Shown here piece after piece: positions 5,779 to 57,600 of a DNA stretch of 64,000 nucleotides. Location of the stretch: contig NZ_VIRM01000035.1 of assembly GCF_006874475.1 (NCBI RefSeq), positions 1-64,000 of the forward strand. Direction: 5' to 3'. The position numbers were made by a program, and so were the translations under genes. Numbering within the stretch: the stretch's first letter is position 1; every line of letters begins with the position of its first letter. The notes under the pieces were generated by a model. It had not been told where the DNA came from, did not search any database, and worked only from the letters and a program-made list of their open reading frames with translations. This DNA is from Microbispora hainanensis (GTDB taxonomy: Bacteria > Actinomycetota > Actinomycetes > Streptosporangiales > Streptosporangiaceae).

Positions 5779-5825
5779 GTAATGGCTGCCGGTGTCTGGC
5801 CGGTAAGGGCCCTCATGTCAGGCCG
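5779..5825 (-). repeat. Degenerate two-copy repeat spanning the MFS stop codon
   Basis: Two imperfect units of 24 bp (5779-5802) and 23 bp (5803-5825) lie at the end of the MFS gene. On the minus strand both start with CGGCC and end with TTAC. The first one read contains the MFS TGA (5818-5820). A further partial copy of the CGGCC end lies just left of 5779. This is the weakest member of the family of stop-codon-associated arrays in this window. Confidence 0.35.
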
Positions 5826-7023
5826 GCACGGGCTGCGCCGCCTCCTCCGTCGTACGCCGCCGGACCTCGGGCAGGGCGAGCACGGCCAGGTTGACCACGG
5901 CCACCAGCGCCGCCGCCGTGAGCAGCGGTGCCGCTGTGCCGGCCCAGGCGGCGACCGGCGCGGCCGCGGCGAGCCCGAGAGGCCGTGCCGCGAAGGAGAT
6001 CAGGCCGTCGAACGAGTCCACCCGGCCGAGGGCCTGCGGCTCCACACGCTGCTGCACCACCGTCTCCCACAGCGGCGTCAGCATCCCCACGCCCAGCATG
6101 GCGACGACGTACGCGGCGGTCACGACCACGGCCGGGGCGGGCAACGCCGCAGGGAACGCGAAGGCGGCGAGCGGGCACGCGTAGACCGCGGCGCCGACCG
6201 CCGCCACGGCGAGGGGCCGCCGGATCCGCAGCCTGGGGGCCACGAAGACGCCGAGCACCGTCGCCACCGTTCCCGCCTGCATCACGACCACCCAGGTCGA
6301 GTCCCCTCCCAGGCTGCGTACGGCGATGACGGGACCGAGGGTCAGCAGGATGCCCGCCCCGAAGTGCCAGACGCCATGCCCGGCCACGCTGATCAGGAAC
6401 CAGCGGTGCCGCCGCGCCTCGCGCCACCCTTCCCGCAGGTCGTGGAGGAAGTGATCGCGTTCGGCCGCCGGCCGCGAAGCCGTCACCAGGCCGCCCAGCG
6501 TGACCGCGGACCCGGCGAACAGCACCCCGGTCAGCAGGAAGGACCATCCCGGCCCGAGCCACAGCGTCAGGCCTCCGGCGAGCGCGGGACCGGCGATCTG
6601 GGCGACGCCGCCGGCCACTCCCATGTGGGCGTTCACCCGGAGCCGGCGCTCCGCCGGCACCACTCCGACGACCAGCGGGGACACCGCCGGGACGCCGAAG
6701 GCCACCGCGGCTCCGGTGAGTGCCGCGAGTCCCGCCATCAGCGCGACAGGGGGCTGCCCGAGGAGGAGCAGCGACCCCAGTGTCACCTGAGCGGCGCAGC
6801 GGACCAGATCGGCCACGAGGATCACCCGCCTCGGCGGGAAGCGGTCGGCGAACACTCCGCCGACCGGGAGCAGCAGGAGCATGGGCAGCATCTCGGCGGC
6901 GAGGACGACACCGAGATCGAGGGCGGAGCCCGTCACTCTGATGACGGCGAGGGTGAGCCCGGTGGGGATGAGTGCGGTGGCGAGCGCCGCGACCGTCCGC
7001 CCGGCGACCAGACGTGCAATCAT
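5818..7023 (-). CDS. MFS drug-efflux-type transporter
   Basis: The 401-residue protein has about twelve hydrophobic segments and the MFS motif-A-like loop GGVFADRFPPRR between the second and third helices, so it is an inner-membrane secondary transporter. Two symmetric halves are joined by a hydrophilic loop with HDLREGWREARRHRWF. The overall layout resembles the enterobactin-exporter/MFS_3 branch. The substrate is unknown. The ATG at 7023 is preferred to the in-frame TTG at 7032 because a good promoter (TTGACG-18-TACCTT) ends seven bases before the ATG, suggesting a leaderless mRNA. It is divergent from a MarR regulator with shared promoter DNA, so drug-inducible derepression by that regulator is the likely control. 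Confidence 0.85.
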   Translation of the reverse strand: MIARLVAGRTVAALATALIPTGLTLAVIRVTGSALDLGVVLAAEMLPMLLLLPVGGVFADRFPPRRVILVADLVRCAAQVTLGSLLLLGQPPVALMAGLAALTGAAVAFGVPAVSPLVVGVVPAERRLRVNAHMGVAGGVAQIAGPALAGGLTLWLGPGWSFLLTGVLFAGSAVTLGGLVTASRPAAERDHFLHDLREGWREARRHRWFLISVAGHGVWHFGAGILLTLGPVIAVRSLGGDSTWVVVMQAGTVATVLGVFVAPRLRIRRPLAVAAVGAAVYACPLAAFAFPAALPAPAVVVTAAYVVAMLGVGMLTPLWETVVQQRVEPQALGRVDSFDGLISFAARPLGLAAAAPVAAWAGTAAPLLTAAALVAVVNLAVLALPEVRRRTTEEAAQPVPA

Positions 7024-7030
7024 GCGAGGC

Positions 7031-7060
7031 AAGGTATTTCGCCAGCGAATCTTTCGTCAA
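7031..7060 (-). promoter_or_regulatory. Promoter of the MFS gene (leaderless type)
   Basis: On the minus strand, TTGACG (complement of 7055-7060) and TACCTT (complement of 7031-7036) are 18 bp apart. The ATG of the transporter lies seven bases beyond the -10 box, the distance at which transcription itself would start, so a leaderless transcript is predicted. Confidence 0.55.
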
Positions 7061-7083
7061 CGTATTTTTATCTGGCGTAGGAT
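7040..7083 (+). promoter_or_regulatory. marR -10 box and candidate MarR operator
   Basis: A -10-like TAGGAT (7078-7083) ends six bases before the GTG of marR, again suggesting a leaderless mRNA; no good -35 is visible. The whole gap is bracketed by an inverted repeat, CGCCAG (7040-7045) and CTGGCG (7072-7077). One arm lies in the MFS promoter spacer and the other abuts the marR -10, so binding could shut both promoters. The operator role is inferred. Confidence 0.45.
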
Positions 7084-7089
7084 TGCCTC

Positions 7090-7587
7090 GTGGACGACTC
7101 GGTGGACCGGCACATCGCGCGGTGGCGCGGGAAGGCGCCCTTCGACGAACGCGTGGAGGCGATCGTCACGCGCATGCAGTTCCTGGTGAAGCACCTGGCC
7201 CAGGCGAAGGACGGCGCGCTCGCCGCGGTGGGCCTGCAGGACTTCGAGTACGAGACCCTGCACTGGCTCGGGGCCCGGGGAGAGGGCGGCCGTGCCACCC
7301 CGTCGGAGCTCGCCGCCGAGCTGAAGGTCTCCCCCGCCGGCATGACGGGCCGCCTGGACACCCTGGAGAAGGCGGGGCTCGTCCGGCGCATCCGCAGCGT
7401 GGAGGACCGCCGCCGGGTGGACGTGGAGCTGACGAGCGAGGGCCGCGCGATCTGGCTCAAGGCGATGGACCTGCGCGGCGAGGTCGAGGACACGATGGTG
7501 GGCGTCCTGGGGCCGGACGACCAGGAGATCCTCGCCGCGTTGCTCAAGCGAATGCTGCTGCGCATGGAGAACCCCGGCCGCGGCTGA
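7090..7587 (+). CDS. MarR family transcriptional regulator
   Basis: A 165-residue winged-helix regulator. The predicted DNA-binding core reads TPSELAAELKVSPAGMTGRL (recognition helix region around residues 76-95), followed by the wing RSVEDRRRVDVELT, with flanking helices for dimerisation at both ends. The start is a GTG at 7090, in line with the -10 box six bases upstream. It is transcribed divergently from an MFS exporter across a gap of 66 bp that contains an inverted repeat. The usual logic in such pairs is a repressor released by the exporter's substrate. The pair interrupts the otherwise conserved spacing between holA and rpsT. Confidence 0.9.
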   Translation: MDDSVDRHIARWRGKAPFDERVEAIVTRMQFLVKHLAQAKDGALAAVGLQDFEYETLHWLGARGEGGRATPSELAAELKVSPAGMTGRLDTLEKAGLVRRIRSVEDRRRVDVELTSEGRAIWLKAMDLRGEVEDTMVGVLGPDDQEILAALLKRMLLRMENPGRG

Positions 7588-7697
7588 CCGGTGGGCGGGG
7601 AGCGGCGCGTCCAGGCATGGCGACCGGCTCCCGCGACCAGGCGTCCCCGGCCGGGCGTCTCGGTGCCTCGGCGACGTCCCGAGCCGAGGAGGTGTGG

Positions 7698-8663
7698 TCA
7701 GCGCTTGTGTCGGCTGGCCACGATCGTGTGGACGGCCTTCTCCAGCGCGTACGCCGGGTCGGTGCCGCCGCCCTTGACCTGCTCGTCGGCGGTGGCCACG
7801 GCCTGGAGGGCGACGGAGATCCCCTCCGGCCCCCAGCCGGCAAGCTGGCGCTTCACCCGGTCGATCTTCCACGGCGGCATGCCCACGTGGCTCGCCAACT
7901 GGCCGCCGCGCAGGTTGCGGGGCGCCCCGCCCACCTTGGCGAGCGAGCGCAGGCCCGCCGCGAGCGCACTGACGATCAGCACCGGCGCCACGCCCGTGGC
8001 GAGGGCCCAGCGGACCTGTTCGAGCGCCTCCCCCAAACGGCCCTCGATGGCCAGGTCGGCGATGGTGAAGCCGCTGACCTCCGCGCGCCCCCGGTAGTAC
8101 TTCGCGACCGCCGCCTCGTCGATGTTCTTGCCCTCGGTGTCGAAGGCGAGCTGGCTGCAGGCGGCGGCCAGTTCGCGCAGGTCGCTCCCCACCGCGTCGA
8201 GCAACGCCTGGGCGGCGGCGGGCGAGATCGATCGGCCCTCCCGGCGGACCTCGGCCTTGATGAAGTCGAGCCGCTCCCCCGCCTTGGTCGCCTTGGCCAC
8301 GGTGACGACGTCCGCGCCCGCCTTCTTCACCCCGTCCACCAGGGCCTTCCCCTTGGCCCCGCCGGCGTGGGCCAGCACCAGCACCGCGTTGTCGGCCGGA
8401 TGGGCGGTGTATTTCACGATCTCGGCGATGACGTCCTTCGAGAGGTCCTGAGCCCCGCGGATCACGATGACCGACCGGTCCCCGAACAATGAGGGGGAAG
8501 CGAGCCCGGCCAGCTCCCCCGGCTCCACCTTGCTCCCCTGAAGGTCGTGCAGCTCCGCCCCCGGATCCTCGGCGCGTACCGCCGCCACGATGGAGCCCAT
8601 GGCGCGATCGGCCAGGAACTCCTCGTCGCCGACGACCAGGGTCACAGGTGCTGGGTTCGCCAT
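7698..8663 (-). CDS. holA: DNA polymerase III subunit delta
   Basis: HolA is the clamp-loader subunit that opens the sliding clamp. The 321-residue protein begins NPAPVTLVVGDEEFLADRAM, which is the actinobacterial HolA N terminus, and contains the AAA+-like fold without a functional P-loop, as expected for delta. A middle stretch LVLAHAGGAKGKALVDGVKKAGA and the C-terminal helical domain with GVAPVLIVSALAAGLRSLAKV also fit. The frame is open far upstream to 10088 but only as antisense to comEC. ATG at 8663 is chosen, with ATG at 8675 as the alternative. It lies 65 bp downstream of comEC on the same strand, the usual comEA-comEC-holA order. Confidence 0.92.
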   Translation of the reverse strand: MANPAPVTLVVGDEEFLADRAMGSIVAAVRAEDPGAELHDLQGSKVEPGELAGLASPSLFGDRSVIVIRGAQDLSKDVIAEIVKYTAHPADNAVLVLAHAGGAKGKALVDGVKKAGADVVTVAKATKAGERLDFIKAEVRREGRSISPAAAQALLDAVGSDLRELAAACSQLAFDTEGKNIDEAAVAKYYRGRAEVSGFTIADLAIEGRLGEALEQVRWALATGVAPVLIVSALAAGLRSLAKVGGAPRNLRGGQLASHVGMPPWKIDRVKRQLAGWGPEGISVALQAVATADEQVKGGGTDPAYALEKAVHTIVASRHKR

Positions 8664-8728
8664 GTCACGCAGCATGCCACGCCCAGGCGGCCGGGGCACA
8701 TCCACCGCCAGCCCCGCCCTCGCCTTCT

Positions 8729-11209
8729 TCACCTGGCTCGCGCTCCTTTTCCCCGTACGACCACAGCCAGGCCGTTGTGAGTGGCGACGACGGCGATGTC
8801 TCCCGACAGGTCGGTGCGGTAGGGGCGCATGCCCAGCCAGCGCAGGCGCCGCAGCGTCAGCGGGGCGGGATGCCCGTAATCGTTGACCGCGCCGACGCTG
8901 ATGAGCGCGGCCCGCGCGCCTGTGGCGGCGAGGAAGGCCGGTGTCTGTCTCGACGAGCCGTGATGGGGAACTTTCAGCAGGTCGACCCGTGGCAGGCCGC
9001 GCCGCACCAGGGCTTCCTGCGCCTCCGTCTCCAGGTCGCCGGCGAGCAGGGCCGCCCCGAGAGCCGGTGCCGGCGAGCCGTCTGGTGCCGTGGACGGTCC
9101 GAACCAGCGGACCAGCAGCACGACGCTGGCGTTGTTGGCCACCGCCCCCTCGCCGGGACCCTGCGGCCCCACACCGGGCTCGGGCGCGAGCACGGTGATC
9201 TCGCTCGGTCCGAACCGCCACCGCAATCCGGGGACCGCCTGCCATTCCGGAATGTGCGCCGCCCTGAGCTGTGCGGAGACGCGTCCGGCCTCGCCCTCGG
9301 GCACGCGGCTCGGGCTCACGACCACCGCCCCCACCGCCCGGCGGCGCAGCACGCCCGGCAGCCCGCCGACATGGTCGAGATGGGGATGGGTCAGGACCAC
9401 GAGCGGCACCTGTCGTACCCCGAGAGCGCGCAGGCACCGATCGGCGGGGCCCGGCTGCGGCCCGGTGTCGACCACCACCGCCCGGCCGGGACCGGCCGCC
9501 AGCGCCAGGGCGTCCCCCTGCCCGACGTCGCAGACGACCAGCAGCCATCCCGGCGGCGGCCAGGGCGACACCACCGGCATGGCCACGAGCGCGGCGAGCA
9601 GCGCTCCGGCGGAGAGCGCCGCCACCAGGCGTCTTCGCGCGCGGCCACGCAGCACGAGCCATCCTGCGACGGCCGCCGCCGCGAGCGCGGCGACGCCCGC
9701 CGCTCCCCCGAACCACTCCGCCGAGGCGAACGGAAGGTCCGCTGCCCGCTGCGCCACCGCGATGATCCAGCCCACCGCCCACCCCGCAGGGCGCACCAGC
9801 AGCCGGGCCAGGTCCATGCTCACCGGAGCGACCAGTGCGGCTCCGAACCCCAGCACCGTCGCGGGCGCCACCGCGGGCTCCGCGAGGAGGTTGGCCGGGA
9901 TCGCCGCCAGGTCGAGGCGCCCCGACATCAGCACCAGCAGGGGCGTGACCGCCGCCTGCGCCGCGGCGGTCACCGCCAGGGCCTCGGCGAGCAGGCGGGG
10001 CACCCGGCGGGCCGTCAGACGGTCGCGCCATCGGGGAGCGAGGACCAGAATGCCGCCGGTCGCGAACACCGACAGCGCGAAGCCCCACTGACGGGCCAGC
10101 CCGGGATCGAACACGACCAGTCCCAGCACGGTCGCCGACAGGGCGGCCACCCCGTCCCGGGTGCGGCCGGTGCCGAGGGCCGCGGCGGCGACGGTTCCCA
10201 TGACGAGGGCTCGCAGCACGCTTGGCGACGGCCGCGCCACGACCGAGAAAGCGATCATCGCGATGACCGCGACGACGGCCCGGAGAGCCAGAGGCAGGCC
10301 GGCGAAGCGCCCGACCACCAGCACAGCGCCCGCCACGATCGCCAGATTGGTGCCGGACACGGCGGTGAGGTGGCTCAGGCCCGCCGTCACCAGGTCGAGC
10401 CGCACCTCCTCGTCGAGGCGTGACACGTCGCCGACGACCAGGCCGGGCAGCAGCCCGCGCTGGTCGTCCGGCAGCACACCGCTCGCCTCACGCAGCCCCT
10501 CGCGCAGCACCCCGGCCGTACGCTGAACGGCCGAGGGCGTGCCGATCGGCTCTGGCGGCCCCCGGACGAGCATGACGGCCGCGACCGGCTCACCCTGCTC
10601 CGCCGGGCCCAACCGCCCGCGCACCCTGACCCGCTGGCTGGGCAGCAGCGGACGCCAGCCGTCGGCGGGGCCGAGCAGCACGACGGGCACGTCCACGGCG
10701 TACCGCTCCCGAGCGGCCGACACCAGCAGCATCCGGGCGCGGACGACCGCCGTCTCCCGCCGGGACACCCCGCCCTGGTGCGGCCGGATGCGCGGATCGT
10801 CGGTGATCTCGGCTTCCGCCGTCACCGTGACGTTCCGGCGGGCCAGGTCCGGCACCGGCCCGGTCGTCACCCGGTGGACCGTGAACGCCGTCAGCGCGGC
10901 CGTGACGGCCGTGGACGCGAGCACCGCCAAGGCGATCCTGAGGGCGGCCCCCGGCGCTCCCGCCGGGTCGGCGAGTCCGCCGCCTGCCTGCTTGCCGCGC
11001 CGCCCGGCGGTCCACGCCGTCGCCCACGTGACCGCACCCGCGACGGTCGCGGCCAGCGCCACGGCGGCTCCGGCGACGGCCGAGCAGCCGAGCAGCACGA
11101 GCGCCGTGAGCCAGGCGGAGACCGCCGGAGCGGCCAGAGCCACCGGACCCGAAACCGCCCTGCCCCGTCCCGCCTCATCGCGGCGCTCGGGCAGGTCGCC
11201 GGCGATCAC
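8729..11209 (-). CDS. comEC: ComEC/Rec2 family DNA-uptake channel protein
   Basis: ComEC is the membrane channel for single-stranded DNA in competence. The 826-residue protein has an N-terminal membrane region, a central competence domain with SGLPDDQRGLLPGLVVGD-like and HLTAVSGTNLAIV motifs, a set of hydrophobic helices, and a C-terminal metallo-beta-lactamase-like domain with THPHLDHVGG and the later HHGSSRQTP, which could act as nuclease. The start GTG at 11209 overlaps the comEA stop in GTGA, so the two are translationally coupled. Most filamentous actinomycetes are not known to be naturally competent, so the actual role (DNA uptake or another) is open. Confidence 0.93.
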   Translation of the reverse strand: MIAGDLPERRDEAGRGRAVSGPVALAAPAVSAWLTALVLLGCSAVAGAAVALAATVAGAVTWATAWTAGRRGKQAGGGLADPAGAPGAALRIALAVLASTAVTAALTAFTVHRVTTGPVPDLARRNVTVTAEAEITDDPRIRPHQGGVSRRETAVVRARMLLVSAARERYAVDVPVVLLGPADGWRPLLPSQRVRVRGRLGPAEQGEPVAAVMLVRGPPEPIGTPSAVQRTAGVLREGLREASGVLPDDQRGLLPGLVVGDVSRLDEEVRLDLVTAGLSHLTAVSGTNLAIVAGAVLVVGRFAGLPLALRAVVAVIAMIAFSVVARPSPSVLRALVMGTVAAAALGTGRTRDGVAALSATVLGLVVFDPGLARQWGFALSVFATGGILVLAPRWRDRLTARRVPRLLAEALAVTAAAQAAVTPLLVLMSGRLDLAAIPANLLAEPAVAPATVLGFGAALVAPVSMDLARLLVRPAGWAVGWIIAVAQRAADLPFASAEWFGGAAGVAALAAAAVAGWLVLRGRARRRLVAALSAGALLAALVAMPVVSPWPPPGWLLVVCDVGQGDALALAAGPGRAVVVDTGPQPGPADRCLRALGVRQVPLVVLTHPHLDHVGGLPGVLRRRAVGAVVVSPSRVPEGEAGRVSAQLRAAHIPEWQAVPGLRWRFGPSEITVLAPEPGVGPQGPGEGAVANNASVVLLVRWFGPSTAPDGSPAPALGAALLAGDLETEAQEALVRRGLPRVDLLKVPHHGSSRQTPAFLAATGARAALISVGAVNDYGHPAPLTLRRLRWLGMRPYRTDLSGDIAVVATHNGLAVVVRGKGARAR

Positions 11210-12333: not shown

Positions 12334-12454
12334 GCCATGGACGGTAGGGACTCACCGAACCCTCAATCGCCGCCGAACGCGATTCTGTGGACAACCCGCG
12401 AACCCCCGGTCGCCCGGCAACGCGACGAGGGTGATGTGCGGCTTGGCCGGAGGC

Positions 12455-13344: not shown

Positions 13345-13444
13345 CTTTTCCGGAACCCCGGGCCGCCTTTTCCTGGATCTCCCAGCCTTTTCCCGGACCT
13401 CCAGGCCTTTTCATAAACCTTCAGACCGCTTGCTGGATCTTCAG
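13345..13444. repeat. 20-bp tandem repeat array, five imperfect units
   Basis: Four units of exactly 20 bp (13365-13384, 13385-13404, 13405-13424, 13425-13444) follow a fifth, more degenerate one (13345-13364). On the plus strand a unit reads gccttttcccggacctccag. Conserved cores are the CTTTTCC at the start and GGAnCTnCAG at the end. The array fills the gap between the degV promoter and the repeats at the hutI stop. It has no spacers, so it is not CRISPR. Confidence 0.75.
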
Positions 13445-13468
13445 GCCTCGCGCACGGCCCGCCCGTCG

Positions 13469-13516
13469 CCGAACCGGCCTTCACGAAAACCGGCCCGTCA
13501 CAAAACCGGCCCGTTA
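13469..13516 (-). repeat. Tandem repeat of the hutI stop-codon region
   Basis: Read on the minus strand, the hutI stop sits in a unit TAACGGGCCGGTTTTG (13501-13516). It is followed by TGACGGGCCGGTTTTCG (13484-13500) and TGAAGGCCGGTTCGG (13469-13483). Each unit starts with a stop codon, and the second stop is in another frame from the first. Confidence 0.75.
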
Positions 13517-25409: not shown

Positions 25410-25628
25410 ATGTGCCGAAGCATCAAGACCCTGCGCCCGCCGTTCACCGACGAGGTGACCGAGGAGGACATCCGGGCGGCGGCCCTGCAGTATGTCCGCA
25501 AGATCTCCGGCTTCCGCGCGCCCGCCGCGCACAACGCGGAGGCGTTCGACCGCGCGGTCGAGGAGATCGCGCAGGCCAGCACGGCGCTGCTGGCCTCCCT
25601 CCAGGTGCGCGGCTCGGCCGCCCGGTAG
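25410..25628 (+). CDS. DUF2277 family protein
   Basis: A 72-residue protein starting MCRSIKTLRPPFTDEVTEED, with the conserved second-residue Cys and the segment AALQYVRKISGFRAPAAHN that define DUF2277. The family is widespread in actinobacteria and its function is unknown; the Cys and the Arg/Lys pattern suggest a nucleic-acid or metal role, but this is speculation. The start is the only ATG that keeps the N-terminal MCR motif. The TAG stop lies inside a 29-bp tandem repeat shared with the end of the convergent M48 protease gene. Confidence 0.85.
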   Translation: MCRSIKTLRPPFTDEVTEEDIRAAALQYVRKISGFRAPAAHNAEAFDRAVEEIAQASTALLASLQVRGSAAR

Positions 25629-25721
25629 CCCCTCGAACGTTCCCGGCCGTCCGGTAACCGCTCAGACGTTCCCGCCGCCCGGTGGCCGCCCGTCCGCCGA
25701 GTGGCCGCTCAGACGTTCTCC
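25622..25721. repeat. 29-bp tandem repeat covering two convergent stop codons
   Basis: Units at 25622-25650 and 25651-25679 are 29 bp each. Partial copies follow at about 25680-25700 and 25701-25721. The 12-base core CGCTCAGACGTT occurs in unit 2 and in the last unit, where it contains the M48 stop. The DUF2277 stop lies in unit 1. Read from the protease side, the stop-codon neighbourhood has been copied two or three times downstream. Confidence 0.65.
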
Positions 25722-27556
25722 AGCAGGGCGATGAGGTGCTTGCGGCTGTCGTCGTCCAGTTCGTCGCTGCTCCACCGTTCCCGCAGCCGCAGGGTCGCGC
25801 CGCCGTAGAGCACGAGTTCGGCGTCGAGCGGGATCCGCTTCCCGATCCGGACGCTCTCGATCTCCTCGAAGGCGACGAACCGGTTCTGCTCGGCCAGGCT
25901 CACCGCGGTCGTCGTGCCGAGCAGGTCGCGCATGCGCTGCCGCCCGTTGTCCGACTTGCCGGGATTCGCGACCAGGACGAGCCCCGTGGTCAGCACGAAC
26001 AGGTCGTGCTCGGCCCCGTCCGCCCGCACGTTCGCCAGGCCTCCGACGACGGCGGACCCAAAGGTGCTCGGGGCCGTGTCGGCCGGTGCGGCCCGGCGGA
26101 CGTCGACGCCGAGCGCCGCCAGCTCTCCGAGGGCCGCCTGCAGGCCGCCCGGACTGACCGCGAGCGTGGCGATCTTCCCCAGCGGCAGCTCGTCACAGCG
26201 TACGCCGCGGAACCGGGCCGGGCCGCTCCAGGAGTGCCACCACCGCCCGACGCCGGACCGCAACGCGGCGAGCCGGATCAGGGTCTCCAGCGGCTCGGCG
26301 AACAGCGGGCCCACCTCCCGCCGGGTGGCGGTCGGAAAGAAGGGCTGCGCGATCGTCGTGAGCTGCCCGGCCGCGATGGCGTCGACCACGTCGGCCAGCC
26401 CCACCGCCGGTTTGCCGGTCGTACGGGCGATCATGCGGAGGATCGCGTCGGCGTCGCGCTGGAGCTGCGCGGCGAGGGCCGTCGCGGTGAGCTCGGGCCA
26501 GGTCAGCAGGGTGCGCTCTCCGCTGTCGATCGCCACCTGCTGCAGCGCGCGCCCGGCCCAGGCGATGTCCGCGAGCAGCATCGACGCGGGCCGGGTGTCG
26601 AGCGGCGCCGCCGTGCGGGGCGCCGCCGCGAGAGCGGCGAGCCGTTCGGACAAGGGCGGATGGGTGTCCCATCTGGAGCCGCTGTCGTCCGGCTCGCGGG
26701 CGCGCAGCTCGTCCAGCTCGTCCCGGCGCGCCTCCACCAGCGCGCCGAACCCGGCGAACAGGTCGGCCGGGGCGTGTCCGGACTCCCAGCCGAGGCGGAC
26801 GTACTGGTCCAGGAAGAAGTCCCAGGCGGCGGCGAGGACGCGGATCTCGCGCAGCGCGCCGGCCGCCGCGTCGGCTCCCGCCGCCCGGGCCGAGGCGAGG
26901 TCGGCCTCCAGCTCCTGGCGGCGCGACCCCGCCCGGTCGACCAGGAGGTAGAGCCGGGCGTACGCGCGGAAGAGCCAGCCCGCCGGGTTGTTCGGCCCGA
27001 TGCGGTCCAGGGTGTGGGCGATCACCAGCCTGCCCCGGTACGCGGGCGCGGACAGGCGGGTGTGGCGTTCGGAGTAGTGCCCGAGCTCGTGCGCGAGCAC
27101 GGCCCGCATCTGTCCCACCGTCATGGTCTGCAGCAGCGGCAGCCCGACGTAGAGGCGGCGGCGTCCTCCGGCGAGCCCGAGGAGACGCGACTCCTCCTGC
27201 ACGGCGGCGTTGACCTCCGCGGTGAGCCAGATCTCCTCCGGCATCCGGGTGCGCGCCTCCGCCGCCAGTTCGTGTACGGTCGCCCACAGCATCGGCGCCC
27301 GGTCGGCGGGCAGCAGCAGGCCGGTGGGCGGCTCCGGGCGGGAGCGTGCCGCCCGCCACACGCCCCGGCCGACCGCCCAGGTGGTGGCGGCGAAGAGCGG
27401 CCACAGCAGCTTCACCACGACGAACCCGGCCATCACCGTGGACAGCCACAGGACGAGCGCCACGAGCCCGGCGACCTGCGCGGCCGCCAGCACGAAGAAC
27501 CCCGCGAGCATGGCCAGGCTGAACCCGGCCCGAATCGTGTTCACTAGTTCACACAC
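25709..27556 (-). CDS. Membrane-bound M48 family metalloprotease
   Basis: The 615-residue protein has two to three hydrophobic helices in the first 60 residues, followed by a cytosolic-type M48 domain. It carries the zinc motif HELGH at residues 156-160 and a downstream ELEADLASA as the likely third ligand, which is the HtpX/Ste24 pattern. The last 300 residues are not part of the usual protease core. They include SRWDTHPPLSERLAAL, typical of M48 proteins, and a C-terminal beta-rich region (ELVLYGGATLRLRERW) that looks like a PH-type fold. The start is uncertain: GTG at 27556 (weak GAGAG upstream) or GTG at 27544. It diverges from the next gene over 41 bp. Confidence 0.85.
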   Translation of the reverse strand: MCELVNTIRAGFSLAMLAGFFVLAAAQVAGLVALVLWLSTVMAGFVVVKLLWPLFAATTWAVGRGVWRAARSRPEPPTGLLLPADRAPMLWATVHELAAEARTRMPEEIWLTAEVNAAVQEESRLLGLAGGRRRLYVGLPLLQTMTVGQMRAVLAHELGHYSERHTRLSAPAYRGRLVIAHTLDRIGPNNPAGWLFRAYARLYLLVDRAGSRRQELEADLASARAAGADAAAGALREIRVLAAAWDFFLDQYVRLGWESGHAPADLFAGFGALVEARRDELDELRAREPDDSGSRWDTHPPLSERLAALAAAPRTAAPLDTRPASMLLADIAWAGRALQQVAIDSGERTLLTWPELTATALAAQLQRDADAILRMIARTTGKPAVGLADVVDAIAAGQLTTIAQPFFPTATRREVGPLFAEPLETLIRLAALRSGVGRWWHSWSGPARFRGVRCDELPLGKIATLAVSPGGLQAALGELAALGVDVRRAAPADTAPSTFGSAVVGGLANVRADGAEHDLFVLTTGLVLVANPGKSDNGRQRMRDLLGTTTAVSLAEQNRFVAFEEIESVRIGKRIPLDAELVLYGGATLRLRERWSSDELDDDSRKHLIALLENV

Positions 27557-30782: not shown

Positions 30783-30787
30783 CGCCG

Positions 30788-30847
30788 CTGCGCGAAAACC
30801 CGCTGCGCGAAAACCCGCTGCACCAAAAACCGCTGCGCAAAACACGG
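30788..30847. repeat. 15-bp tandem repeat downstream of the FHA gene
   Basis: Four units: CTGCGCGAAAACCCG twice in perfect copy (30788-30802, 30803-30817), then CTGCACCAAAAACCG and CTGCGCAAAACACGG. The array starts six bases after the TGA. The stop codon is not inside a unit here. Confidence 0.8.
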
Positions 30848-32726: not shown

Positions 32727-34100
32727 ATGACAAACGCGACGCAGGCGTACAGCTACGCCGCGCCTTCGATGCTGGTGGACGGGCGTCTCGGGCTCTCGAC
32801 GTCCGGGGGCAGGGCCCTGAGCGGCCCCGCCGTGGCGCCGAGGTTCTTCAGCGGGGTGGTGACCCAGGCGGCCCCCGCGGCGGCGGCCCTGCTGGGCGTG
32901 GCCGACGTGGCCCTCACCCGTTATCACCAGCCGCGTCCGGGGTGGACCCGCGATCCGGTCGTCACGTGCGGCGGCGACCGGCTGCGGCTCGAGTCGTTCT
33001 CCGCCTGCGGCGGCGTGTACGCCCGGCTCGACCTGCTCGGGGACGCCCTGGACGGCGAGGTGTTCGACCGGGGGACGACCAACGTCGACGTCAACGGCGC
33101 GCTGCGGGAGGCGCTGGCCCGCGTGGGCCCGCGCGACCCGCTGCACCTCGGGGTCGGCGCCGACGAGCTCACGGTGACCACGCTCGACGGCGCGGTGGTG
33201 GAGAAGAAGGTGCCGCTGCCCGAGCGGTGGCTGCGGGGGTTCGCCGAGGTTCAGGTGATCGCGGCGCGGATGGACCTGCGGGCCGAGCTGCAGGGGATGA
33301 GCGCGGTGCGGTTCCTGCGGTCCCTGCCCAAGCGGGCGACGGCCGACCTGTGGGTCGCCCCCGCGGACCGCGACCTGCGCGTCGCCGACCGGCCCGGCCC
33401 CGGATCGGTGTGCCTGTCCGGCGTGGGCCGCCTGGCGACGCTGCTGCCCCTGCTCCGCTTCGCCAGAAGCCTCAAGGTGTACGGCCCGGCCTCCCCCGGC
33501 GGCCCGGCGTCGAGCGCGTGGGAGCTGGAGCTGCCCGGCATGCGTTACACGCTGGTCCTGTCGCCCGAGCGCTGGCGCGGATTCTCCGGCGAGGGCGCGG
33601 TGCTGACCGACCTCGCCACCGACGAGGCCGAGGCCGACGCCGACGTGGTGGGGATGCTGCTCAACTTCGAGCCCGAGGTGGAGATCGGCCTGCTGGCCGA
33701 CCGCGCCGGGCTGTCCTCCAGCCGGGTGCGGGCCGCCCTCACCCAGCTCGGCACGGCGGGGCGCGTCGGCTACGACCTGTCCGAGGCGGCGTACTTCCAC
33801 CGTGAGCTGCCCTACGACCGGGAGCACGTGCAGCACCTCAACCCGCGGCTGACGGCCGCGCGGGCGCTGGTCGCGGCCGGCGCCGTGGAGGTCACGGGCG
33901 ACACGGCACGCGTACGGACCGACGGTGGGCTGCGGGAGGTCGGTCTGACCGACGGATCGTGCACCTGCCCCTGGTGGTGGGATCATCGCGGCTCACGCGG
34001 GCCGTGCAAACACGTGCTCGCGGCCAGGATCGCCGCGCGGGCCGGCACGGACGCCGGCATGAGGGCGGTCGTGGAGACGAGCCCGGAGCTCGTCCGATGA
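32727..34100 (+). CDS. SWIM zinc-finger protein
   Basis: The 457-residue protein carries near its C terminus the SWIM motif CTCPWWWDHRGSRGPCKHVL, i.e. CxC-x(n)-CxH, which binds zinc and typically mediates DNA or protein contacts. The rest is a beta/alpha-rich domain without known catalytic residues; around residue 310 a winged-helix-like segment (IGLLADRAGLSSSRVRAALT) is visible. The ATG at 32727 is preferred to 32697. The stop overlaps the start of the next large gene in ATGA, so the two are coupled. In other bacteria SWIM proteins of this size lie beside MoxR ATPase and VWA genes; none is present here. Confidence 0.85.
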   Translation: MTNATQAYSYAAPSMLVDGRLGLSTSGGRALSGPAVAPRFFSGVVTQAAPAAAALLGVADVALTRYHQPRPGWTRDPVVTCGGDRLRLESFSACGGVYARLDLLGDALDGEVFDRGTTNVDVNGALREALARVGPRDPLHLGVGADELTVTTLDGAVVEKKVPLPERWLRGFAEVQVIAARMDLRAELQGMSAVRFLRSLPKRATADLWVAPADRDLRVADRPGPGSVCLSGVGRLATLLPLLRFARSLKVYGPASPGGPASSAWELELPGMRYTLVLSPERWRGFSGEGAVLTDLATDEAEADADVVGMLLNFEPEVEIGLLADRAGLSSSRVRAALTQLGTAGRVGYDLSEAAYFHRELPYDREHVQHLNPRLTAARALVAAGAVEVTGDTARVRTDGGLREVGLTDGSCTCPWWWDHRGSRGPCKHVLAARIAARAGTDAGMRAVVETSPELVR

Positions 34101-37100
34101 GCGCCTGGCAGGAGGTGCGCGACCTCGTCACCGCGCGCGAGACGAAGGCGCTGGCCGACCGCGTGATCGCGCTCACCGAGGCCGAGCGCGCCGAGGTGGC
34201 GAAGCGGCTGCCGGGCTTCCTCACGGAGATGCGCGACAGCGCCACGCAGATGGCCCGCGAGAGCGAGCGGGCTCACGGCTTCGGCGACGAGGACCCATGG
34301 CTCGTCTGGGAGCGCCGCCGCACGGTGCGGGACGCCCTCGCCGAGTTCGGCACGGTCCTGCGGATCGCGGGCGCGGGGACCATCTCCGGGCCCGCCGCGG
34401 CGGCGGCGTGGCTGACCCGTCGTGAGCTCTACCCGGAGTGGGCGCCGGCCCCGGGCCCGGCCGAGGTGGTCCGGGTGATGGTCACCCGCCCGGCCGGGTG
34501 GCAGGCCGACGTGGCGGGCCGGCTCGCCGCAAAGATCCGCAGGGCCGGCGACGATCGGATCGCCCCGCTGGTGCTCGCACTGCTGCGGGCCTCCGGCATC
34601 ACGCCGCCCGCGCACGACATGCTCGTCGTCGCGTGGCTGACCGGCGAGGCGGCGGACGACGATCCGCTGCTCGGCCCGCTGCTGCCGCGGATCTTCCACG
34701 CCGAGGGCGCGGGCCGCGCCCTGCGCGAGGAACGGCTCACGCCGACGCCCACCCGGTGGCTCTCCCTGATCCGGCGGCTCCTGGACGCCGGGCGGGTGTC
34801 CCGGACGGAGCTCCTGGACGGCTGCGTGAGCCGGTTCCTGCGCGGGGGCGACGCCGCGGACCTCCGCTTCTTCGTGCGCCTGCACGAACTGGTCGATCCC
34901 ACGCCGCAGGAGGCGGCCGAGAGGGCCCGTGACTACCTGCGGCTGCTCCCCGCCGCCCCCGGCCCCGTCGCCGAGCTGGCCCTGACCCAGATCAACCGCT
35001 GCGGCCCCCACGACGACGCCGACGTCCAGGAGGCGATCGACGCGCTGACCTTCAGGCCCGAGGCCAAGCAGGCCCGGGCCGGCCTGACCCTGCTCGACCA
35101 GGAGGTGCGGCGAAGTCCCGCACGGGCCGGCGCACTCGCTCCCGCGCTCGTCACGGCGCTCGCCCACACGTCCGACGACGTGCGGCGGCGAGCCGTACGG
35201 ATCGCGCTCAGGCACGCCGCGGCGTTCGGCGGGGACGCGAAACCGATCGCCGACGCGGTGCCACTGCTGCCCGCCGATCTCGGCCGGGAGCTCGCCGCGG
35301 TGTTCGGCGGCGAGGTCGCGGCCGAACAGACGCCGGAACCGTTCACCCCCGCGCCGCTGCCCGTCTTCCCCGAGCCCGGCCCGTTCCCCCCGCCGACGGT
35401 GGATCGGACCGCGAGCGCACTGTACGGCTGGGAGGCGTGCGAGCAGTGGCTCGCCGGCTTCGTCGAGCGGGCGGGCAGTGACCGGGCGGCCCTGCGGGAG
35501 GCGCTCGTCCCCGCCTTCGGGGACTCCTTCTCCCATCTGTACGACATGGAGCGCTGGCTCGATCCGGACGCCTGGATCGCCGCCATGGCGAAGGAAGTGA
35601 TCACTCCCGGCGCCGATCCCGGCGTGCCCGATCCGGAGCCCGTCGATCCCTGGGCGGGATCGAGCTTCTCGGTGAGCGTGAGCGCCGTGCCGCCCGACGA
35701 GCCGGACGGCCACGCCGCACCGGACAACGCCGCACCGGAAAACGCCGCACCGGAAAACGAAGGCGGCGCGGAAGACGGAGACGACGCGGAAGACGGGGCC
35801 GCGCCCGAGCCGGCCTTCGGCCGCCTGCCGGAGTACGTCCGGGAGGAGATCTTCCGCCAGATCCGTGAGCTCGGGGTCTCCGCCGAGCGGGTGGCGGCGA
35901 TGCGCGACGGCCTGCCCATGCCTCCCCGCGATCCCGGCGAGCCGAACTTCCGCGTGGGGATCATGTATTCGGGCTTCCGGCCGCTGTTCGCCGAGCCGGA
36001 GGAGCCGGACCCCGCGGTGGAGTTCCGCCGCCGCGCCCGGCTGCCGGAGCCCGCGCACGTCTCCCCGCCGCACATGTTCCTGCTGCACCGGCTCAGCGAG
36101 ATCTATCGGGCGCTCCGGGAAGGGACGCTGCCTCCCGTCCTGCTGGCGACGCCGACGGTGACGACCGGGCACCTCGATCCCGGCGTGCTGGTGGACCGGC
36201 TGGAGCTGTGCGCCGCCGCGGGCACGGAACCGCTGCCCGCCGACCTGCAGCAGGCGTTGCTGCGGCTGCCGAGGGGGGCGCACCCTGTCGCCGCCGAGCG
36301 CGCCGCACGCGTGGGTTCGCGGGCGGCGTCGGCCGTCGCCGCCTGGCTCGCCCGGGGCGGCCTGCCCGATCCGGAAGCCGGGGTGAAGTGGGGCTACGTC
36401 GAGGGGGCCCATGAGCACCTGTTCGAGGAGCACGACCCGGTGCATGTCGAGCAGGTGCACGTCGGGCGGGTGCGGCTGGTGCCGGTGCTGCGAGCGGAGC
36501 CGACCGGGCATCCCCTCATCGACGAGCTGCTGCGCGAGCCGTCGAAGTGGCGGTGGGACGATCACGGCCACGCCATGGACTGGTGGCCGTCGATCCTCCC
36601 GTCGCACCGCGAGGCCGTCTCCGTCAACTACCTGCCCCACCTGCTCTATCAGTGGAACCAGCCGGGGGTCTATCCGCCCCATCTGCGGGGCGTGGCGGAC
36701 GCCGACGGCCCGCTCGGGGACGCGACCGCGCTCATCCTGGCCTACTTCCTGGCCACGGGTCACCCCGGCTCGGTGCCCCTGCTGCTGCGGATGACGAGCC
36801 GGGGAGCGCTGGACGCCGAGGCGGCCGGCCGTCAGCTCGCGCTGCTGATCCGCCGCACCAGGTTCGAGCCCCGCCCGGTGATCGCGTCGCTGCGGGAGGC
36901 CGCGCATCAGGGGGCGCACGAGCAGGTGTGGGAGATCGTGCGGACCCTGTTGCCCGGCCTGCTGCCCTCCGCCGGGGAGCGACCCGCCGTCGCCCACACC
37001 GAGGCGGTGACGCTCGCCGCCGACGTGGCCGCCTGGGTGGGCGCCCGCGGCGAGATCCCGGCGGTGTCGGCGCACGCCGCCGCCGGCCGGGCGAGCCGGG

Positions 37101-37153
37101 GCAGCCGCTTCGCCCGGGAGTGCGCGCGCCTGCGCGACCTGCTCGCCGGATAA
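34097..37153 (+). CDS. DUF6493 family large protein
   Basis: The 1018-residue protein is mostly helical and Ala/Leu/Arg-rich, with HEAT-like stretches (for example LAHTSDDVRRRAVRIALRHA near residue 350), and has no signal peptide. I assign it to DUF6493, which is found behind SWIM proteins in actinomycetes, from overall layout and position. A disordered acidic linker near residues 530-570 contains in-frame repeats of AAPEN (15 bp, three times) and an 18-bp GAEDGD-type unit. No ATPase or nuclease motif is visible. The ATG overlaps the SWIM stop, so both proteins are made together and may form a complex. The role is unknown. Confidence 0.75.
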   Translation: MSAWQEVRDLVTARETKALADRVIALTEAERAEVAKRLPGFLTEMRDSATQMARESERAHGFGDEDPWLVWERRRTVRDALAEFGTVLRIAGAGTISGPAAAAAWLTRRELYPEWAPAPGPAEVVRVMVTRPAGWQADVAGRLAAKIRRAGDDRIAPLVLALLRASGITPPAHDMLVVAWLTGEAADDDPLLGPLLPRIFHAEGAGRALREERLTPTPTRWLSLIRRLLDAGRVSRTELLDGCVSRFLRGGDAADLRFFVRLHELVDPTPQEAAERARDYLRLLPAAPGPVAELALTQINRCGPHDDADVQEAIDALTFRPEAKQARAGLTLLDQEVRRSPARAGALAPALVTALAHTSDDVRRRAVRIALRHAAAFGGDAKPIADAVPLLPADLGRELAAVFGGEVAAEQTPEPFTPAPLPVFPEPGPFPPPTVDRTASALYGWEACEQWLAGFVERAGSDRAALREALVPAFGDSFSHLYDMERWLDPDAWIAAMAKEVITPGADPGVPDPEPVDPWAGSSFSVSVSAVPPDEPDGHAAPDNAAPENAAPENEGGAEDGDDAEDGAAPEPAFGRLPEYVREEIFRQIRELGVSAERVAAMRDGLPMPPRDPGEPNFRVGIMYSGFRPLFAEPEEPDPAVEFRRRARLPEPAHVSPPHMFLLHRLSEIYRALREGTLPPVLLATPTVTTGHLDPGVLVDRLELCAAAGTEPLPADLQQALLRLPRGAHPVAAERAARVGSRAASAVAAWLARGGLPDPEAGVKWGYVEGAHEHLFEEHDPVHVEQVHVGRVRLVPVLRAEPTGHPLIDELLREPSKWRWDDHGHAMDWWPSILPSHREAVSVNYLPHLLYQWNQPGVYPPHLRGVADADGPLGDATALILAYFLATGHPGSVPLLLRMTSRGALDAEAAGRQLALLIRRTRFEPRPVIASLREAAHQGAHEQVWEIVRTLLPGLLPSAGERPAVAHTEAVTLAADVAAWVGARGEIPAVSAHAAAGRASRGSRFARECARLRDLLAG
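35717..35795 (+). repeat. In-frame minisatellite in the DUF6493 gene
   Basis: The 15-bp unit GCCGCACCGGAAAAC occurs three times (the first with a one-base change), followed by about two 18-bp units of GGCGCGGAAGAC type. All keep the reading frame and lengthen a flexible acidic linker. Confidence 0.7.
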
Positions 37154-39629: not shown

Positions 39630-39713
39630 CCGTTGATCAGATGCCGTTGATCAGATGCCGGGGATCGGACGCCCGGGATCGGACGCCCGGGATCGGACGC
39701 GGTGGATCAGGCG
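39630..39713 (-). repeat. 14-bp tandem repeat starting at the stop codon of the second betaine-binding protein
   Basis: Six contiguous 14-bp units cover 39630-39713. Plus-strand units are CCGTTGATCAGATG twice, CCGGGGATCGGACG, CCCGGGATCGGACG twice and CGGTGGATCAGGCG. The last one contains the TGA (39707-39709) of the gene. Every unit keeps the GATC core. This is the clearest array in the window. Confidence 0.9.
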
Positions 39714-45929: not shown

Positions 45930-45983
45930 GCCGCCTCCTCGCTCATGAATCGAACCCGACTCTAGAGCAAGGTTCCGCCAGGG

Positions 45984-46031
45984 GTGGCCGGCGGGTGGAT
46001 CAGAGGCGTGGCGGGCGGGTGGATCAGAGGC
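45984..46031 (-). repeat. 24-bp direct repeat covering the stop codon of the 758-residue protein
   Basis: Two 24-bp units (46008-46031 and 45984-46007) differ at only one position. On the minus strand each has the core GCCTCTGATCCACCCGCC. The first one contains the TGA of the gene (46024-46026). The copies are in the same frame, so the second TGA is also in frame with the first. Confidence 0.85.
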
Positions 46032-50944: not shown

Positions 50945-50972
50945 ACCCTCCAGTGTCCCAGCGGCGGGGAGG

Positions 50973-51506: not shown

Positions 51507-51548
51507 GCGTCCCATTCTGCGCGCGCCCGGGCGGGGTAGGGTGATCGG

Positions 51549-54215: not shown

Positions 54216-54251
54216 ACGCCAGCGCCCCGCCCGATGACCCGCTCAGCGGTG

Positions 54252-54269
54252 CGGCCGGTGACCCGGCCG
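54252..54269. terminator. Small hairpin between convergent genes
   Basis: CGGCCGG pairs with CCGGCCG across a TGAC loop, 7 bp, in the 71-bp gap between the membrane-anchored protein gene and miaB. It could serve both as terminator, but lacks T runs. Confidence 0.3.
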
Positions 54270-54286
54270 TCGCCGGGCCTGGGGCG

Positions 54287-55807
54287 TCAGACGGCCGAGC
54301 AGGCGGACGGCTCGGCGGGCAGCGGAGCGGGACGCCCGATGGTGGGCATCCCCAGGTTGACCGCGCTGCCCCGCTGCGGGGCGGCCTGCCGGGTCTCCCA
54401 GGCGTCGCCCGCGCGGGTCCGCCGTACGGACAGGACCTTGTCGGCCACCAGGTGGTGCGGCGCGGCGTAGGTCACCTCCACCGTGACCATGTCGCCGGGG
54501 CGCGCGTCGGCGGCGGCCTCGCCGGCGAGGTGGACGAGGCGGTTGTCGGCCGCGCGGCCGGACAGGCGACGGGTTGCGTCGTCCTTGCGGCCCTCGCCCT
54601 CGGCGACCAGCACTTCCAGGGTGCGGCCGACCTGCTTCTTGTTCTCCTCCCAGGAGATCTCCTCCTGGAGGGCGACCAGGCGCTCGTAGCGCTCCTGGAC
54701 CACGGCCTTGGGCACCTGGTCCTCCATGGTCGCGGCGGGGGTGCCGGGCCGGATGGAGTATTGGAACGTGAACGCGTTGGCGAAGCGCGACTGCCGTACG
54801 ACGTCGAGGGTCTGCTGGAAGTCCTCCTCGGTCTCGCCGGGGAAGCCCACGATGATGTCGGTCGAGATCGCGGCGTCCGGCATCGCGGCCCGGACCCGCT
54901 CGATGATCCCAAGGTAGCGCTCGGACCGGTATGACCGGCGCATGGCCTTGAGGATGCGGTCGGAGCCGGACTGCAGCGGCATGTGCAGCTGGTGCATCAC
55001 GTTCGGCGTCTCGGCCATGGCGGCGATCACGTCGTCGGTGAAGGCGGCCGGGTGGGGCGAGGTGAAGCGGACCCGCTCCAGGCCCTCGATGTCGCCGCAG
55101 GCCCGCAGCAGCTTGCCGAACGCCAGCCGGTCGCCGAACTCCACGCCGTAGGTGTTGACGTTCTGGCCCAGCAGCGTGATCTCCAGGACGCCCTGGTCGA
55201 CGAGTGTGCGCACCTCGTTGAGGATGTCGCCGGGACGGCGGTCCTTCTCCTTGCCCCGCAGCGACGGCACGATGCAGAACGTGCAGGTGTTGTTGCACCC
55301 GACCGAGATCGCCACCCAGGCCGCGTAGGCCGACTCGCGGCGGCTCGGCAGCGTGGAGGGGAAGGTCTCCAGGGACTCCTTGATCTCGACCTGGGCCTCT
55401 TCGGCGATCCGGGCCCGCTCCAGCAGGACCGGCAGCGAGCCGATGTTGTGGGTGCCGAAGACCACGTCCACCCAGGGGGCCCGGCGGACGATCTCGCCCT
55501 GGTCCTTCTGCGCGAGGCACCCGCCGACCGCGATCTGCATGCCCTTGCGGGCCATCTTGATCGGTCTCAGGTGGCCCAGGTTGCCGTAGAGCCGGTTGTC
55601 GGCGTTCTCGCGTACGGCACAGGTGTTGAACACGACGACGTCCGGCGTGTCTCCTTCGGCCGCGCGGACGTATCCGGCGTCCTCCAGCAGCCCGGACAGC
55701 CGCTCCGAGTCGTGCACGTTCATCTGGCAGCCGTAGGTCCGCACCTCGTAGGTCCGGGCCTCGCCTTCGGCGCCCTGGGTCGTCGCAGTCTGTGTGGTCG
55801 CAGTCAT
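54287..55807 (-). CDS. miaB: tRNA-2-methylthio-N6-dimethylallyladenosine synthase
   Basis: MiaB is a radical-SAM enzyme with two iron-sulfur clusters. The 506-residue protein has the N-terminal UPF0004 domain with three cluster Cys ([22 protein letters not shown]), the SAM-cluster motif CNNTCTFC near residue 165, and a C-terminal TRAM domain. The last 25 residues form a divergent tail. ATG at 55807 is the start; the frame further up is noise. In actinobacteria miaB normally neighbours the gluABCD transporter. Here a histidine kinase gene lies between. Confidence 0.95.
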
Positions 55808-55987
55808 CGCACTACAAGGGTAGGCGCTTCCCCGCCCCCGCCCGTACCGGAACGTCGCACACCCGGCCGCGACCGGGCGGCGATGGCGGACGGTTGCGTG
55901 ACACGCCTCCGGAATGCCGGACGCGGACCGGATCGTGGAGGCGGGGCCGCTGTCATGACCCGGGCTCGCATCCGGCATTACCCAGGC

Positions 55988-56017
55988 TTGTGAAAACAGA
56001 AAGTTTCGTTTTATTGA
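55988..56017 (+). promoter_or_regulatory. Promoter of the histidine kinase gene (leaderless type)
   Basis: TTGTGA (55988-55993) and TATTGA (56012-56017) are 18 bp apart in an unusually AT-rich stretch. The -10 box ends seven bases before the ATG at 56025, which supports that start and a leaderless transcript. Confidence 0.55.
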
Positions 56018-56024
56018 GTCGTTC

Positions 56025-57503
56025 ATGTCTATGTGGTGCCCTTGTGAGGGCACCAGACCAACGCTCCCCACCGATTGGCCCGAAACGATGTCGAACTGGA
56101 ACCGATCATCCATTCTCGTCCGGAGGACGGTCGGTTACTCCATCGTCGCGGCGCTGGTCTGCACCGGGGTCAGCCTGCTCTTCCTCTTCGTCGTGGGCAG
56201 CAGGGACGCCGACGCGGCACGGGCCCGGGTCACCGGGGCGTGGGATCGAACGGTGCCCTTGATCAGGGAGGGATACCTCCCCTCCATGCTGCCGGCGGGC
56301 CAGGACATCGCGCTCCAGGTCCTGGACACGCAGGGACAGGTCGTCGCGTCCACGCCGCAACTCGCGCACAAGCCGCCAATGGCCACCTTCCACGCGCCCA
56401 GCGCGAGCGTGCACGCCGAACGGGTGCTGTGCCCTCCGGCCGGGCTGAAGGGCTGCATGACCGTCTTCTCGTACAAGGTCTATCAGCCGGACGGGCCGTG
56501 GCTCCTTTACGTGGCGGCGCCCACGGTCCCCTGGTTCGGGAACATGGCGGCGCTGTCCTTCGCGATCGGCATGTCCCTGGTCGCGACCGCGATGACGGCC
56601 GCCGGGACCTTCCATGTGGTCAAAAGGGACATGACCGCGGTGGACGCCATCCGCAGGGAGCTGGCGGAGATCACTGCCACCCATCTGCACCGCCGGGTCC
56701 CCGTGGGGTGCGACAACCAGGAAGAGATCAAGCTTCTGGCCGGAACGGTGAACGACACCCTCGACCGGCTCGAAGGCGCGTACAAGCAACTGCGGCAGTT
56801 CACCTCGGACGCCTCGCACGACCTGCGCAACCCCCTCACCGCCATGCGGACGCAGCTCGAAGAGGCCCTCATGCATCCGCACGACACCGACTGGCCGAGG
56901 ACGGCCGGGGCGGTGCTCACCGGTGTGGACCGGCTCCAGGCGATCGTGACCGACCTGCTGACCCTGGCCAGGCTGGACGCCCGCGCCCCCCTCGACCTCA
57001 GTGCGACCGACCTCGGCCGCCTGGTCGGCGAGGAGCTCGACCGCCACGCCTACCGGATGGAGATCGTGCGGGATCTCCGGCTGAACGTGTTCGTCGACTG
57101 CGACCCGCTGCGGATCACCCGCCTCCTGGTGAACCTGCTCGACAACGCCGAACGGCACGCCACCTCACGGATCACCGTCATCGTGCGGGCCGACGGGCCG
57201 ACGGCGACGATGGAGGTCATCGACGACGGCGCCGGGATCGCTCCGGAACACCGGGAACGGGTCTTCGACCGCTTCACCCGGCTGGACGCCTCACGCGACC
57301 GGGACTCCGGGGGGACCGGGCTGGGGCTGGCGATCGCACGGGAGATCGCGGAAGCACACCACGGCACGCTGACCATCCAGGACAGCGAAAGGGGAGCGCG
57401 GTTCGTCCTGCGCCTCCCCGTCCGCGAAGCGCCGCAGACCTCCGGCCGCAGCACGCACGGCGCCGGTCATGCCGGCCTTTTCAGTTTTCCGGTCATTCGC
57501 TGA
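56025..57503 (+). CDS. Sensor histidine kinase without a neighbouring response regulator
   Basis: The 492-residue protein has two membrane helices (about residues 35-58 and 172-197) that enclose an extracytoplasmic sensor of about 110 residues with two Cys (residues 136 and 144). A HAMP linker follows, then the dimerisation helix with the phospho-acceptor His 265 in [12 protein letters not shown], and a full ATPase domain: N-box [14 protein letters not shown]1 [12 protein letters not shown]-box region [11 protein letters not shown] and G2 [10 protein letters not shown]. All motifs are intact. The start at 56025 is favoured by the promoter; ATG 56088 is the alternative. No response regulator gene lies on either side, so its partner is elsewhere. 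The stop codon begins a 20-bp tandem array. Confidence 0.9.
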
Positions 57504-57600
57504 GTTCCCGGCCATCCGACTGAGTTCCCGGCCATCCGACTGAGCTCCCGGCCATCCGACTGAGTTCCCGGTCATCCGATGAGCCGCTCCCGGTCCCGAT
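57481..57600 (+). repeat. 20-bp tandem repeat starting at the histidine kinase stop codon
   Basis: The unit is TGAGTTCCCGGCCATCCGAC. Copies begin at 57501 (its TGA is the gene's stop), 57521, 57541, 57561 (19 bp) and 57580 (more degenerate), with a further TGAG at 57600. The 20 bases before the stop are a sixth, divergent copy. The TGA triplets at 57501, 57521 and 57541 fall in three different frames. Confidence 0.9.

Follow-up and report, generated by a model that had tools for sequence, protein, structure and literature searches.

Private tandem arrays past stop codons in Microbispora hainanensis are very probably ordinary duplications retained where tolerated

Several genes in a 64,000-nt stretch of Microbispora hainanensis, a soil actinomycete of the family Streptosporangiaceae (the window: bases 1-64,000 of contig C181, 89,789 nt long, in an 8.7-Mb draft genome of 251 contigs) run at their 3′ ends into short tandem arrays, each with a unit of its own. 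Why should arrays gather at stop codons? A first-pass annotation of the window proposed that some process repeatedly duplicates the DNA around the stop. We find instead that the arrays are of a known kind, bacterial minisatellites or variable-number tandem repeats (VNTRs), with head-to-tail units of about 10-60 bp that occur above chance; very probably they are ordinary duplications, private to each locus, that have been retained where they are tolerated. A process aimed at stops is probably not at work. We propose a simple rule for reading such loci: the protein shows no trace of a duplication across its stop, and gene ends would therefore gather the scars of a process active elsewhere too.

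Distribution of arrays around genes

Arrays were called with Tandem Repeats Finder (TRF; score >=50, period 10-40; in the window, score >=30) in a 622,622-nt sample of the M. hainanensis genome that includes the window and that, like the samples from other genomes, is partial. Genes were called with our own coding-model script and not taken from annotation; on one 50-kb E. coli stretch it recovered 36 of 48 annotated stops, all 36 correctly, so it misses genes and part of the arrays counted here as spacer arrays may be coding. Genes contain 138 of the 210 arrays, co-directional spacers 31, convergent spacers 28 and divergent spacers 8, and 5 fall beyond the outermost genes of a stretch; this corresponds to 2.66 per 10 kb in coding sequence and 7.54, 18.46 and 3.26 per 10 kb in the three spacer classes (convergent over divergent, p = 1.5e-6). 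Arrays contain the stop in 15 of 517 genes and the start in 4 of 517 (p = 0.009). Scanned alone, the spacers hold 62 arrays, against a mean of 1.25 in dinucleotide shuffles (20 rounds); spacer arrays are not due to chance. The excess at 3′ ends is thus real, standing above shuffled sequence and not being matched by like arrays at gene starts. The units are private to their genes, as had been claimed: among the 72 non-coding arrays of the sample there is no cross match at E<1e-3, and with no shared unit a dispersed repeat family such as REP/BIME is excluded. A common motif in the units was considered and rejected, as CTGATC occurs in 6 of the 72 arrays but with a density in spacers near that of the genome.

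The position of arrays relative to the stop speaks against the stop as a target. Across 444 stops with spacers of at least 60 nt, from M. hainanensis and the sister Microbispora G011 (a single-contig genome, 94.6% identical in nucleotides in aligned blocks >2 kb), array coverage climbs smoothly through the stop without a peak there: it rises from 1.3% at -30 to -20 through 2.7% at -20 to -10 to 6.2% at -10 to 0, and goes on to 9.4% at 0-10, 12.0% at 10-20, 13.9% at 30-40 and 12.8% at 40-60 nt past the stop. Near starts, coverage stays at about 1-4%. For M. hainanensis alone, coverage is still 9% at 100-150 nt past the stop and 5.5-6.4% further out. Nor are arrays confined to stops, as some lie far into spacers or in divergent gaps.

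The 3′ excess is common to some actinomycetes, neither peculiar to the window nor universal. G011 has 9.8, 17.6 and 2.8 arrays per 10 kb in co-directional, convergent and divergent spacers, with the stop inside an array in 19 of 315 genes and the start in 2 of 315 (p = 9e-5), and Nonomuraea gerenzanensis has 11.4, 19.5 and 1.8 (convergent over divergent, p = 0.005). A large Streptomyces replicon has 7.4, 23.0 and 8.2; with Nonomuraea and Streptomyces pooled, arrays contain the stop in 15 and the start in 6 of 314 genes (p = 0.04). Samples of 100 kb yielded no spacer array in E. coli or S. meliloti pSymB and one in R. jostii pRHL1.

Origin and turnover at individual gene ends

Pfam backs the MFS, amidohydrolase, DUF2277, M48, FHA, OpuAC and histidine kinase assignments among the window proteins. 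The annotation had listed seven gene-end arrays, with the stop in the first unit in six of them. TRF recovered six as real tandem repeats; the seventh, a 23-24 bp array at the MFS gene, was not recovered, with no row at score >=30 between 5725 and 5863. The claim for first units was generous, the stop lying wholly inside the array in four of the seven (DUF2277, betaine-binding protein, 758-residue protein and kinase). Where it does, its place in the first unit is a matter of geometry, because translation of a duplicated stop-bearing unit ends at the first copy.

The hutI end shows repeated origin most clearly. Its array (16 bp x 3.4, 13461-13514, minus strand) starts on the final base of its TAA stop codon, and a second one (20 bp x 2.4, 13365-13412, minus strand) lies 101 nt past it. 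The product has an amidohydrolase match and is hutI-like, the HUTI-specific domain scoring slightly under its Pfam cut-off; the protein is at least 96% identical in 15 of 15 Microbispora genomes (one genome per species, as for all relatives compared), and its last eight residues are identical in 14 of the 15. Six of the 15 genomes have an array that starts no more than 15 nt from the stop, the periods being 16, 16, 13, 17, 14 and 14. One array is common to M. hainanensis and G011; in L289 and L292 the gene end itself has been copied, with differing periods; and the arrays of L285 and L291 resemble the others no more than shuffles do. We count at least four independent origins, and probably a fifth.

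Other ends differ between relatives in copy number or in the array itself. The kinase array (20 bp x 4.8, 57489-57583, plus strand, spanning the stop, with an overlapping 20-bp x 1.9 row at its 3′ edge, 57566-57605, plus strand) faces a single copy in G011 and a separate 18-bp array of about four copies in G008 (L137). At the 758-residue gene, a 24-bp x 2.2 array spans the stop (45980-46031, minus strand), with two copies in M. hainanensis and one in the species of L044-L047; relatives of this protein at 85-97% identity belong to Microbispora, and its sole Pfam match is a sub-threshold TPR. The FHA-gene array (15 bp x 4, 30785-30843, plus strand) starts 2 nt past the stop, with a conserved element following directly downstream; in most relatives the spacer is short and holds at most one similar copy, G011 has a decayed form and G012 (L160) its own 12-bp array. 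The betaine-binding-protein array (14 bp, 14/28 bp in TRF, about five copies, 39635-39710, minus strand) spans the stop and is followed by a conserved GC-rich hairpin; it has 4.6 copies in G011 and 2.2 in G006. The DUF2277 array (29 bp x 2.6, 25615-25689, plus strand) spans the stop in a spacer shared with the convergent M48 gene, and in the three relatives with an M48 match at E<=1e-100 no TRF array was found at score >=40.

Of 227 orthologous pairs between M. hainanensis and G011, 12 were dropped for differing context and 72 for spacers under 20 nt, which left 143 gene ends, a convergent spacer counting twice, once per end. An array is present in one or both species at 57 of these ends, in both at 30 and in one only at 27, and spacer length differs by at least 10 nt in 107 of 171.

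Probable selective tolerance

Large length changes follow the same gradient as the arrays. Between M. hainanensis and G011, simple indels of at least 8 nt number 16.1 per kb in convergent, 6.0 in co-directional and 2.45 in divergent spacers (3 of 143 orthologous spacers dropped as too long), paralleling array density across the classes, and in array-free spacers the values are 10.7 (8 spacers only), 3.3 and 1.2. In the first 15 nt of array-free spacers, substitutions per site amount to 0.092-0.151 after stops versus 0.022-0.029 before starts. Proteins are unchanged at their ends: counting the stop, seven or more of the nine final positions agree in 22 of the 24 gene pairs where an array spans the stop, compared with 216 of all 227 pairs.

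Inside genes the filter is the reading frame. Among perfect duplications in the two Microbispora, multiples of three make up 91-93% of the periods in coding sequence (n = 47, 27) versus 31-34% of those in spacers (n = 35, 39); the input therefore looks frame-blind, with selection filtering in genes.

Mechanism and alternative explanations

We examined 59 perfect spacer duplications from M. hainanensis, G011 and Nonomuraea (extra match <0.6 of the period), some of which M. hainanensis and G011 share, so that not all are independent. Junction microhomology of at least 3 nt is present in 46%, versus 8% in simulation (p = 5e-8), which suggests slipped pairing between short direct repeats, or microhomology-mediated joining. 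On the reading that we favour, head-to-tail duplications of 10-40 bp would arise chromosome-wide, chiefly via slippage between short direct repeats, and then alter in copy number and decay, with selection setting the places in which they last. Few but those with a period that is a multiple of three would survive in genes; upstream of starts, duplications would disturb promoters and ribosome sites; the spacer past a stop should tolerate them until the next functional element, and a stop-spanning duplication would leave the protein as it is, since translation ends at the first copy. Slippage tolerated only past genes had been one of the options raised for the window, and it is the one that the data support as a reading, with slippage itself being what we infer and the arrays presumably neutral.

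Several observations weigh against this account. Roughly a third of the 59 duplications are without microhomology. Stop-spanning arrays are 1.6-fold too frequent, with 36 of 118 across four samples versus 22.2 expected under uniform placement, a model that lets the unit span either spacer end; by sample, observed and expected numbers are 13 and 8.9 in M. hainanensis, 15 and 6.3 in G011, 6 and 4.6 in Nonomuraea, and 2 and 2.4 in Streptomyces, the surplus thus coming mostly from the two related Microbispora. Array 5′ edges are crowded around the stop, with about double the density at -20 to +10 that they have at +10 to +100. As a candidate cause of the surplus we would name constrained terminators and promoters further down the spacer. 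In co-directional spacers at 15-30 nt, substitutions are no different between the two sides (0.051 after stops, 0.050 before starts), whereas indels still differ there. The frame rule is unclear in Nonomuraea, where 62% of 8 coding and 50% of 12 spacer duplications are divisible by three. Only a small number of large indels qualified as simple tandem copies when pairwise alignments were scored (2 of 58, 9 of 82, 2 of 15), we think because multi-copy arrays align badly. The convergent excess over divergent spacers is weak in Streptomyces (p = 0.06), and there is none in Azospirillum (an alphaproteobacterium of 67.5% GC, with 7 spacer arrays), in G098 (16 spacer arrays) or in a small Microbispora panel (20.1 versus divergent 25.9, the latter from 2 arrays in 772 nt).

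Could mutation itself be linked to stops? Past a stop the polymerase loses its ribosome, and R-loops, pausing or the head-on collision of convergent genes might cause breaks that are repaired with duplication. Such a process would suit the maximum of array density in convergent spacers, as well as the stop-spanning surplus and the crowding of 5′ edges just described. It is at odds, however, with a coverage that is greater 30-60 nt past the stop than at the stop itself and that stays near 9% out to 150 nt in M. hainanensis, and in-frame duplications are frequent inside genes as well (45 of 49 perfect coding duplications in M. hainanensis have a period that is a multiple of three). Convergent spacers and the bases just after stops also have elevated rates of substitution and of small indels, which relaxed constraint explains; we consider stop-linked mutation unlikely.

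Retention of ordinary duplications is also to be preferred over a selected function of the 3′-end RNA, in which the arrays would serve as terminators, stabilisers or back-up stops. The arrays do sit after genes, the betaine array lies directly 5′ of its hairpin, and a comparison with dinucleotide shuffles gives arrays slightly more structure than array-free ends have (-1.14 versus -0.64; -1.32 versus -1.03). Yet measured against arrays of shuffled units their folding is no stronger (mean z -0.19 and 0.03), and the stable hairpin in the unit that would mark an intrinsic terminator is likewise absent in this set-level test, which averages over arrays (mean z about 0). The hairpin beside the betaine array is conserved and distinct from it. 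Both functions suggested for the window, 3′-end RNA structure and back-up stops in other frames, were rejected: the periods of stop-spanning arrays are multiples of three in 5 of 14 and 6 of 16 cases, the chance share, and neither unit nor presence is conserved, as the 27 of 57 array-bearing ends with an array in one species only attest. We judge a selected RNA function highly improbable. An artefact of assembly or gene calling deserves almost no credence. The genome is a fragmented draft, the caller found three quarters of the annotated genes in the E. coli stretch, and three divides 47% of the TRF periods in spacers, but single-contig G011 repeats the pattern, arrays recur in independent assemblies of other genera, every called E. 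coli stop was correct, and perfect spacer duplications in Microbispora keep to the chance share of multiples of three.

Streptosporangiaceae compared with other Actinomycetota

Perfect (recent) spacer duplications number 34 in 81 kb of M. hainanensis and 19 in 56 kb of Nonomuraea, with 1 in 25 kb of Streptomyces, where TRF array density, unlike these duplications, is similar. Pooled over 12 genera of the Streptosporangiaceae there are 72 in 197 kb (3.6 per 10 kb), and the 14 samples from other actinomycetes hold 17 in 245 kb (0.7 per 10 kb; pooled p = 2e-12; p = 0.001 when tested across lineages, with 10 of 12 genera at >3 kb of spacer each); the eight other samples with GC >=67.5% give 0.76 per 10 kb. 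The family pool consists of M. hainanensis, N. gerenzanensis and 65 of the 80 relative loci from the search with the 758-residue protein, L083 counting as Nonomuraea, and omits G011, the 11 other Microbispora loci and 4 loci of other genera. Large plasmids are among the comparison samples, and several of the family's genera are represented by few kb. Values within the family start at 0 (Planotetraspora, Acrocarpospora), and one outside sample, G040, reaches 3.7 per 10 kb (3 in 8 kb).

The roughly fivefold excess in Streptosporangiaceae over the other Actinomycetota sampled is possibly new, and is a lead, not proof. GC content as sole cause was rejected on G050, G062 and G079, actinomycetes of 67.5-72% GC with no perfect spacer duplication, and Ku as sole cause on the Ku-positive G031, G062, G070 and G092, which have none either. 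We suggest tentatively, and with some doubt, that the family has a lineage-wide, unusually active machinery of short tandem duplication, independent of GC and going beyond Ku alone, of which post-stop arrays, being silent in the protein, would be the record. If it is true that Streptosporangiaceae duplicate short DNA several-fold faster, they would offer a natural mutator-type system for finding the polymerase or repair step responsible. The arrays could also mark strains within Microbispora and give a natural measure of how fast duplications arise.

Relation to known repeat systems

Mycobacterial VNTRs are described in the available sections of PMC2734929 as strain-variable head-to-tail arrays in spacers, one of which, in rnc-fpg1, begins 40 bp past the rnc stop; MIRU units of 40-100 bp are dispersed there over 41 locations. 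The arrays here are likewise short and in spacers, but unlike MIRU the 72 sampled arrays share no unit. Borg tandem repeats, as presented in portions of PMC9879509, are perfect, A-rich and carried by extrachromosomal archaeal elements. They have in common with our arrays independent origin, unique units and, in Microbispora, the frame rule; our arrays, by contrast, are imperfect, GC-rich and chromosomal, with a measured 3′ bias.

A satellite survey (PMC6749651, in the parts available) counted arrays of at least 10 nt and four copies and found many coding periods divisible by three; its Table 1 gives 4.2 per Mb for S. coelicolor and at most 23 per Mb among the bacteria listed. Our M. hainanensis sample has 82 per Mb, 35 outside called genes, under a looser TRF counting whose criteria differ from the survey's, and the same counting gives 20 per Mb, none outside called genes, in the Streptomyces sample. 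According to the accessible text of PMC4060949, intergenic DNA mostly has an excess of closely spaced 10-bp direct-repeat pairs. In the open-licence full texts searched, as far as their available portions go, we found no description of stop-centred arrays or of a stop-side bias in actinomycetes.

REP/BIME elements form a dispersed palindromic family that is likewise located after genes. The position is the same as for the arrays here, but those lack a shared unit.

Other observations

The convergent spacer at the MFS gene holds a 33-bp x 2.1 repeat (5657-5725), away from the MFS stop. A coding counterpart of the window's arrays, 15 bp x 3.2 with 96% matches, lies at 35712-35759 within the gene at 34097-37153. 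Elsewhere in the sample, eight near-identical 15-bp units stand 9 nt past a stop at L027:14633-14752 (C1:134633-134752), the top-scoring spacer array listed. In G011, a 17-bp unit in about ten copies fills most of the spacer orthologous to the convergent one at C1:16404-17729, which has no TRF array in M. hainanensis. The G011 ortholog of the M48 gene at 25709-27556 lies in two pieces in different frames (L279 and L280), which overlap near residue 293, and may be broken. Past the 758-residue gene, a longer, related stretch takes the place of the usual spacer in two Microbispora species (L048 and L050); it carries an inverted repeat around GATCTTGCAATTGCAAGATC and may be a small mobile element or repeat element.

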